Shown: one piece after another, positions 46,574-59,683 of the stretch
Numbering within the stretch: the first letter of the stretch is position 1
Layout of the letters: every line of letters starts with the position of its first letter
Assembly: GCA_009841255.1 (NCBI GenBank)
Contig: VXMD01000032.1
Coordinates: forward strand, 124,001-188,000
Source: Candidatus Poribacteria bacterium
GTDB lineage: Bacteria; Poribacteria; WGA-4E; WGA-3G
Direction: 5' to 3'
Length of the DNA: 64,000 nt
Made by a program: the position numbers and the translations under genes
The notes under the pieces: model-generated
Told to the model about the DNA's origin: nothing
The model's database searches: none
The model's input: only the letters and a program-made list of their open reading frames with translations

Positions 46574-47110
46574 TTAGTCCCCGTTCTTTGTCAACCGCGC
46601 GACGATTTCCTTCACGGCACCCTCTGCCCGCTCCCGAATCTGATCGGGTGTCAGACTCTGGATCGGATGCGGGACGGTGAGCGGTTCCAAATCACCATGA
46701 CCGAGGACTCGCGCTTGGACTTTGCCTGCAGCGAAGAAGACTTCCGTACAAACGGCGACACTTGGGACACCCCGTTCCTCTAAGGCACTGCCATCGTGCA
46801 TACTGCACGATATACAAGATCCTCAGTCGGCGAGCCCTTCAATGACGAAATCTGCTTGTTCTGCTAGGTCAACAAGCAGTTCCGTCGGTGCGGGACGCGT
46901 GAACGTCGGTTTTTTGACGTGGATCACTTCAGCAAGATCGAACCGTTCCTGCATCAATTCAGCGATGCGATCGAGGAAGATATCGCTGCCGTTTTTGGTG
47001 ATGTTCAGTAAACCCATTACTTTCCCATCAAGGCTCTCAAGCCGCGGTGCGAGAAATTTCGCCGATGCATCGCCTTGAGAGGTTGGATCGAGTAAAGTCG
47101 TATTTGGCAT
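46574..47110 (-). CDS. UGSC-family selenoprotein (in-frame UGA read as Sec)
   Basis: A 178 aa protein whose frame is interrupted by one TGA at 46825-46823 (residue 96). Upstream (VIEGLAD) and downstream (GSCISCSMHDGSALEERGVPSV) are in the same frame and join to give the ADUGSC signature of the UGSC protein family, with GVPSVAVCTEVF after it as the family expects. A bSECIS-like hairpin follows the UGA. The start at 47110 (MPNTTLLDP) has GAGGG upstream; an ATG 5 codons earlier does not. The thiol/selenol motif suggests a redox role, not proven. Co-transcribed with the TPR gene, 25 bp upstream. Confidence 0.88.
46793..46825 (-). promoter_or_regulatory. Sec UGA codon and bacterial SECIS-like hairpin
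   Basis: Minus strand: TGA (46825-46823), 11 nt, then a perfect 7-bp stem ATCGTGC/GCACGAT (46811-46805 and 46799-46793) with loop AGTAT. The loop has G in its second position and lies 18 nt after the UGA, within the range expected for bacterial SECIS. Confidence 0.8.
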
Positions 47111-47135
47111 TATGGAAACCCTCAACAGTAAGACA

Positions 47136-47468
47136 TTAGGTAGATGAACGGGACGCCTCTATCTGCAACTGTTGCGACTTTGCCATCGCATCTTCTGCTT
47201 CTTGAATCATCCCCTTTCGTTGGTAACACATAGATAGACTGGTATACACAAGCGGATCCTTCGGGTTGATTTCTATCGCCTTCTGGATCGCCTCAATGGC
47301 TTCATCGTAGAGACTCATCCGTTCGTATGCGTGCCCCAGTCCCAAGAATCCTTCGATATAGTCTGGGTAAGTTTCAATCAATTCTTTAAAAGCATTAACA
47401 GCCGCTTCGAGATCGTTTTCAGCAAAATGGGTGAGCGCGGCATCGTAGAGTTCCGCTTCGGTCAGCAT
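47136..47468 (-). CDS. Small TPR protein
   Basis: 110 aa with about three tetratricopeptide repeats: LYDAALTHFAENDLEAAVNAFKELIETYPDY, IEGFLGLGHAYERMSLYDEAIEAIQKAIEINPKD, PLVYTSLSMCYQRKGMIQEAEDAMAKSQQLQ. Likely a protein-interaction scaffold; no signal peptide. AAAGGA 7 nt upstream and a near-consensus promoter at 47501-47529. It leads the transcript that contains the UGSC selenoprotein. Confidence 0.88.
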   Translation of the reverse strand: MLTEAELYDAALTHFAENDLEAAVNAFKELIETYPDYIEGFLGLGHAYERMSLYDEAIEAIQKAIEINPKDPLVYTSLSMCYQRKGMIQEAEDAMAKSQQLQIEASRSST

Positions 47469-58702: not shown

Positions 58703-59683
58703 ATGCAAAAATGTGCACTTATCAGCGGTAGAGGTATGGGATTGATGCACGGCGGAAACTTCCACAGCCATCCGGACGCGGAGGTGGTCGCGGTGTGCGA
58801 TATGGATCCGGAACTCCTTGCGAAGGCAGCAGAACAATTTGGGGTCCCTGGGTATTCAACAATTGAGGATCTCTTAGCAAATTGTGATGCGGAACTCGTA
58901 CTTCTTATTGTCAATGAGACCCGGCGCATCCCACCCTTACGGCAATTGCTTGAAGCCGGACGGAACGTGTTCACTGAGAAACCGCTCTGTGGATTGGAGG
59001 GACAAGCCCGGTTGCGTGAAGAAGACCTCCGAATCGCGGCACCCGCTATTGCAACATGGCGCGACTCTCATCTTAAGTTCGGGATCGATTTCAACTACCG
59101 ATTTATGCACCATTTCCGTAAACTGCATGATGATGTTGCTGAAAATCGGTTGGGTGAGATTCGGATGGTACACGCACGTGCGCATTTCAACTGTTGGTCG
59201 CATGTCATCGATCAGATCCTCTGGACGGTCGGCAGACCGGAATGGGTGAGTGTTGTCGGAGATCCGAATGAAGCCGGGGGATGGGGACGTTTAATTCACA
59301 TGGGTTGGGAGAATGGCGTCATCGGCTCCTTGAGCGGCACAAACTTGTGGGGTTACGACGATCATCCGCTTCGAGTTAAGGTCCTTGGCGATGAATTTTA
59401 CGCCGAGGCAAAAGGATTGGAAGGCTCCTACTCCCGCCGAAAAGCGAATACTTCCGAAATAGAGGAAGTCTGGGAAGCCGAAGATGACAGCCCAGAGATG
59501 CCGGAGTCTTTCAAACGGATGGCTGATGGTGTGGTTAAGGCGATGCATGCCGACACTCCCTTCCCAGCAGACGGTGAAGCGGCATGGAACGAACTCCTGT
59601 TTGAGGCGGCAGTTCACAGGTCCGCCTTGCAGAACAATGCCCGCGTATTTCTGAAAGATGTTGAAGAAGAAGCAAGCGCTTGA
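58703..59683 (+). CDS. Gfo/Idh/MocA-family oxidoreductase
   Basis: 326 aa NAD(P)-dependent sugar or inositol dehydrogenase type. Rossmann start CALISGRGMGLMHGGNF, EKP motif in NVFTEKPLCG near residue 96, substrate-side KFGIDFNYRFMHHFRKL, then a His-rich helix (NCWSHVIDQILW). This family is expanded in sugar-degrading PVC bacteria. The exact substrate is unknown. AAAGGA before the ATG; divergent from the GH32-like gene. Confidence 0.85.
   Translation: MQKCALISGRGMGLMHGGNFHSHPDAEVVAVCDMDPELLAKAAEQFGVPGYSTIEDLLANCDAELVLLIVNETRRIPPLRQLLEAGRNVFTEKPLCGLEGQARLREEDLRIAAPAIATWRDSHLKFGIDFNYRFMHHFRKLHDDVAENRLGEIRMVHARAHFNCWSHVIDQILWTVGRPEWVSVVGDPNEAGGWGRLIHMGWENGVIGSLSGTNLWGYDDHPLRVKVLGDEFYAEAKGLEGSYSRRKANTSEIEEVWEAEDDSPEMPESFKRMADGVVKAMHADTPFPADGEAAWNELLFEAAVHRSALQNNARVFLKDVEEEASA

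Follow-up and report, generated by a model that had tools for sequence, protein, structure and literature searches.

A gene on the minus strand of a 64,000-nucleotide stretch of Candidatus Poribacteria DNA (assembly GCA_009841255.1, contig VXMD01000032.1, positions 124,001 to 188,000; hereafter the window) looks split in two by a TGA codon, but is almost certainly one gene in which UGA is read as selenocysteine (Sec). This reading is drawn because a single frame runs through the UGA, a downstream hairpin of the bacterial selenocysteine insertion sequence (SECIS) type is under selection, the selA-selB-selC-selD set is complete, and cysteine stands at the same site in some relatives. The gene is a further member of the UGSC family, which was already described as a selenoprotein family in 2008 (Zhang and Gladyshev, PMC2398784). 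The Global Ocean Sampling survey of that year counted 255 Sec and 21 Cys forms (PMC2398784), and a 2026 review lists the family with the motif UGSC and describes such proteins as largely uncharacterised (PMC13188914).

One reading frame through an in-frame TGA

The features of the gene, in window coordinates, are as follows.
46574-47110, minus strand: predicted UGSC family selenoprotein gene, ATG at 47110, TAA at 46576-46574, 178 residues with Sec as residue 96
46823-46825, minus strand: TGA, the probable selenocysteine codon (U96) and first residue of the UGSC motif, from TGA conservation and Cys homologues
46814-46825, minus strand: UGSC motif, from the read-through translation

Between ATG and TAA the frame is open except for this one TGA, and it gives 178 residues when TGA is translated as U. 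The sequence ADUGSC occupies residues 94-99, and U96 and C99 form a UxxC pair. The first-pass annotation had joined two minus-strand frames through the TGA into ADUGSC, and the union is borne out by two family models that extend across both halves and span the Sec site. These are PF24696 (UGSC; E 1.2e-50, 172.5 bits against a gathering score of 25) and NF041046 (UGSC family (seleno)protein; 156.8 bits against a curated cut-off of 125). The alignment it had proposed also gave the expected residues: 17 other members carry U or C in the U96 column.

Of the phylum's 85 genomes, 63 have a PF24696 match. Sixty of these matches are full-length, and in each of them a single stop, a TGA, interrupts the frame; of the remaining three, one is a gene split over two contigs (G053), another is truncated at a contig end (G026), and the third is a divergent fused form (G005). 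TGA stands at the Sec column in 58 of 58 distinct poribacterial sequences, and in 49 of 49 GTDB-collection loci, all labelled Candidatus Poribacteria or uncultured Poribacteria. Homologues carried on plasmids (28-36% identity) are of both types: Acidovorax and Paracoccus have Sec forms, and Cys takes the place of Sec in haloarchaea, Embleya, Roseovarius, Arthrobacter and Variovorax (L117, L118, L120-L123 and L125-L128). The Sec-form gene of Paracoccus ferrooxidans, 4.4 kb from selB, is annotated as two hypothetical proteins.

The TGA could also be an ordinary stop, separating two genes or marking a pseudogene or a sequencing error, and a mechanical listing of open reading frames (ORFs) does give the gene as separate ORFs of 100 and 75 residues. 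This is very improbable, however, given a TGA kept in 58 distinct sequences of about 60 genomes, a downstream half conserved as protein, and one Pfam and one NCBIfam model that each cover both halves. The two-gene, pseudogene and error readings were ruled out on the conservation of the TGA and of the downstream protein.

The hairpin downstream of the TGA

Three putative RNA elements surround or follow the UGA.
46793-46811, minus strand: bacterial SECIS apical hairpin, stem ATCGTGC/GCACGAT, loop AGTAT (46800-46804), from folding, pairing and frozen synonymous sites
46821-46826, minus strand: lower helix, 5' arm CUGAGG, enclosing the UGA, from folding, GAC at codon -1 and pair counts
46780-46785, minus strand: lower helix, 3' arm CCUUAG, including the Leu codon TTA, from folding and from codon and pair counts

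The apical hairpin, ATCGTGC-AGTAT-GCACGAT, has 7 bp and a 5-nucleotide loop and starts exactly 11 nucleotides past the TGA; its conserved AGTAT loop lies 18 nucleotides past the TGA. The sequence and spacing given in the first-pass annotation are therefore exact, but of the perfect 7-bp stem it described, the seventh and outermost A-U pair is formed in just 35 of the 56 distinct Sec-type sequences compared (Acidovorax, Paracoccus and 54 from Poribacteria). The inner six pairs (46794-46810) constitute the conserved core and are paired in 55-56 of the 56. Folding of the hairpin gives z = -4.66, with none of 200 shuffles equally stable. The whole window was also scanned for perfect 7-bp stems with a loop of 3-8 nucleotides at an offset of 5-25 after a TGA. 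Such stems follow 29 of 2,328 TGA trinucleotides on both strands, and in only three of these 29 cases are the flanking frames open for at least 60 codons before the TGA and at least 40 after it. The UGSC hairpin alone among the 29 combines offset 11 with a 5-nucleotide loop. An Rfam search of the window returned tRNA-Pro only and no SECIS match.

A perfect 7-bp stem, GGCGCGG/CCGCGCC, is also found 11 nucleotides after the stop TGA (at 59681) of a 326-residue ORF at 58703-59683 on the plus strand. It is probably a terminator rather than a SECIS.

Sequence comparison indicates that the UGSC hairpin is under selection, because the inner pairs are kept, synonymous codons are frozen, and the closing pair changes in a compensatory manner. 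The closing C-G pair is replaced by U-A in the poribacterial locus L054 and by G-C in Acidovorax and Paracoccus; the stem reads CGTGC/GCACG in most Poribacteria, CGTGT/ACACG in L054 and CGTGG/CCACG in Acidovorax. In the 58 distinct poribacterial coding stretches, codons within the hairpin are nearly fixed: Ser+5 is TCG in 57/57, Cys+6 TGC in 57/58, Ser+7 AGT in 58/58 and His+9 CAC in 58/58. At 86 other conserved residues the mean share of the top codon is 0.61. Ser+2, by contrast, uses all four TCN codons. The hairpin might be kept merely through conservation of the peptide SCSMHD, which is indeed highly conserved. Only a slight chance is given to this explanation, since the synonymous freezing is confined to the hairpin, the closing pair shows compensatory changes, and the AGTRT loop, present in UGSC-type Sec forms, is missing from Cys-form homologues whose peptides are similar. 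The pairing and codon data thus uphold the earlier proposal of a selenoprotein with a SECIS, and the relatives retain both the TGA and the inner pairs.

Within Poribacteria the lower helix is supported by codon usage: codon -1 is GAC in 58/58 sequences, and codon +14 is TTA in 55/58. The folds predicted for the Acidovorax and Paracoccus sequences do not include this helix. Its pairs were counted without gaps, as the covariation count from the MAFFT alignment is shifted there by end gaps.

Selenocysteine machinery and other UGA-containing genes

The source genome (G000; 87 contigs, 96% complete) was searched family by family. The first-pass annotation had predicted that selA, selB, selC and selD are present elsewhere in the genome, and all four were located above their cut-offs: selA on contig C78 (595.8 bits, cut-off 267.9), selB on C50 (353.2, cut-off 242.25), selD on C31 (361.1, cut-off 125), and the tRNA-Sec gene (selC) beside selB (78.1, cut-off 47; anticodon tca, or UCA, by ARAGORN). 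With this complete machinery, a hairpin conserved at synonymous sites, and a family column that holds Sec or Cys and never Trp, there is next to no likelihood that the UGA is decoded as tryptophan or passed by non-specific, selenium-free read-through. We infer instead that Sec is inserted. A ribosome would reach the UGA at codon 96 of the UGSC mRNA, the in-message hairpin 11-12 nucleotides downstream would bind SelB carrying Sec-tRNA(Sec), and Sec would be incorporated in place of termination.

At least three genes of the genome have UGA at a predicted Sec site, because UGSC, selD and a GrdB/PrdB-like gene each have an in-frame TGA. The selD gene has one, in the motif CAG-U-ASK at its Sec site, but its protein is unrelated to UGSC. 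The stand-alone GrdB/PrdB-like gene (L158, contig C83, about 134.8-135.2 kb, minus strand) has the TGA in the motif PVUPMC and encodes the C-terminal part of PF07355, a family matched by 65 of 83 genomes in the phylum. These two genes, as well as the prior publication of the UGSC family, were absent from the first-pass annotation.

A second, chimeric selB was also observed (L004, contig C50, 156364-160179; also L003 and L007). It shares its first ~280 residues exactly with selB and then passes in frame into a LepA-like C-terminus. The locus matches the selB locus over 2,323 bp and the lepA locus over 951 bp, both at 100% identity, and represents either a recent tandem duplication or an assembly artefact.

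Gene neighbourhood, partner protein and proposed function

Two features lie immediately upstream of the UGSC gene.
47119-47123, minus strand: probable ribosome-binding site GAGGG, 8 nucleotides 5' of the ATG, by sequence reading only
47136-47468, minus strand: TPR-repeat protein gene, 110 residues, a probable co-transcribed neighbour (PF07719, 3.5e-16, and other TPR models)

The order and strand of the TPR and UGSC genes are kept in 41 of 49 poribacterial loci. In the most divergent poribacterial loci (about 68% identity) the small TPR gene was not found beside UGSC.

A protein of about 320-370 residues, with the signatures WTDGLPxxPPT and VMAGCxP, accompanies UGSC in many genomes; no Pfam or NCBIfam model matched the partner sequences searched. 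The partner adjoins UGSC at most plasmid loci and in the poribacterial genomes G024 and G026, and is fused to it in L121, L116 and L053. The last of these (G005, contig C955, 597-1700) is a divergent UGSC-like domain with a UGA and the motif UxTC rather than UGSC. The partner was not found in the viral contigs searched, nor within the flanks of the retrieved GTDB loci. Across the phylum, 60 genomes have both UGSC and partner, 20 have neither and four are discordant (2 + 2), with a Fisher value of 5e-15 not corrected for ancestry; those with neither include five of genus g4, in which selA is retained. Genes for thioredoxin reductase (TrxB) or similar flavoproteins occur near UGSC at five plasmid loci. 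Three of these (L120, L122 and L128) have TrxB proper and two (L121 and L125) a TrxB-like flavoprotein; in L122 trxA is nearby as well. Such TrxB neighbours resemble the electron supply of glycine reductase.

Because of the adjacency and fusion of the partner, the co-occurrence in the phylum and the TrxB neighbours, UGSC can tentatively be viewed as the Sec subunit of a two-protein reductase. The U96-C99 pair would form the redox or reductive active site, and electrons would be supplied by a donor resembling thioredoxin or thioredoxin reductase. In its full form the proposal, which is possible but somewhat doubtful, is that of an undescribed reductase composed of UGSC (Sec or Cys) and the WTDGLPxxPPT protein, driven by thioredoxin reductase, perhaps distantly akin to the Sec domain of glycine/proline reductase, and present in Poribacteria, proteobacteria, actinobacteria and haloarchaea.

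GrdB and 'PrdB' of glycine and D-proline reductases (PF07355, TIGR01917) share with UGSC a UxxC Sec domain followed by a similar E-x-x-G-I/V-x-S/T-V. The match of the UGSC and GrdB-like profiles by hhalign aligns Sec to Sec but is weak (E 0.025, probability 2%), as is that of TIGR01917 to L121 (E 0.18), nor was any grd/prd operon seen beside UGSC. The resemblance is suggestive only, the profile match being too weak for a claim of homology. No significant hit came from searching PDB sequences with the profiles of UGSC, the partner and the GrdB-like protein.

The UxxC pair is a thioredoxin-type motif, and the 2008 suggestion of a thioredoxin-fold thiol oxidoreductase could apply, with UGSC working without a partner. 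This is unlikely in view of the co-occurrence and fusion of UGSC with the partner, and the predicted fold does not favour it either. The AlphaFold2 model (predicted TM-score 0.75, mean pLDDT 74.8) has an alternating beta-alpha architecture, with Sec following the third strand. Its fold matches are to flavodoxin, TIR and flavodiiron proteins at Z 8-10 (best Z 9.8), and no thioredoxin-fold structures are among the matches listed. UGSC thus looks flavodoxin-like rather than thioredoxin-like in this model, whose confidence is moderate overall and low near Sec (pLDDT about 60).

Several points weigh against the reading of UGSC as a selenoprotein subunit of a two-protein reductase. The assignment of Sec to residue 96 derives from sequence, and the divergent UGA-containing L053 is without the AGTRT hairpin. 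The co-occurrence count is not corrected for common descent, and a small number of independent losses may account for it. In the source genome UGSC and the partner gene are unlinked, the latter lying on a different contig (C7, L157, 9071-10012), and no trxB was seen near either gene. We know of no UGSC member with demonstrated activity.

In comparison with the family of 2008, the poribacterial protein belongs to the same sequence family, with Sec in UGSC and a SECIS-type element (PF24696, NF041046; PMC2398784). It stands alone, unlinked to the partner in most genomes, and shows no difference in kind. Some members reported in 2008 were also fused to another domain, termed 'Unknown_1' (PMC2398784); this may be the WTDGLPxxPPT partner.

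The annotation is corrected here from two spurious ORFs to one selenoprotein, and the Sec trait is kept across this poribacterial order. The selenoprotein gene is genuine. The consistent partner and the flavodoxin-like model are a modest addition to what has been described for the family. Together with the thioredoxin reductase neighbours, the partner provides a lead on the function of UGSC and makes its activity testable.
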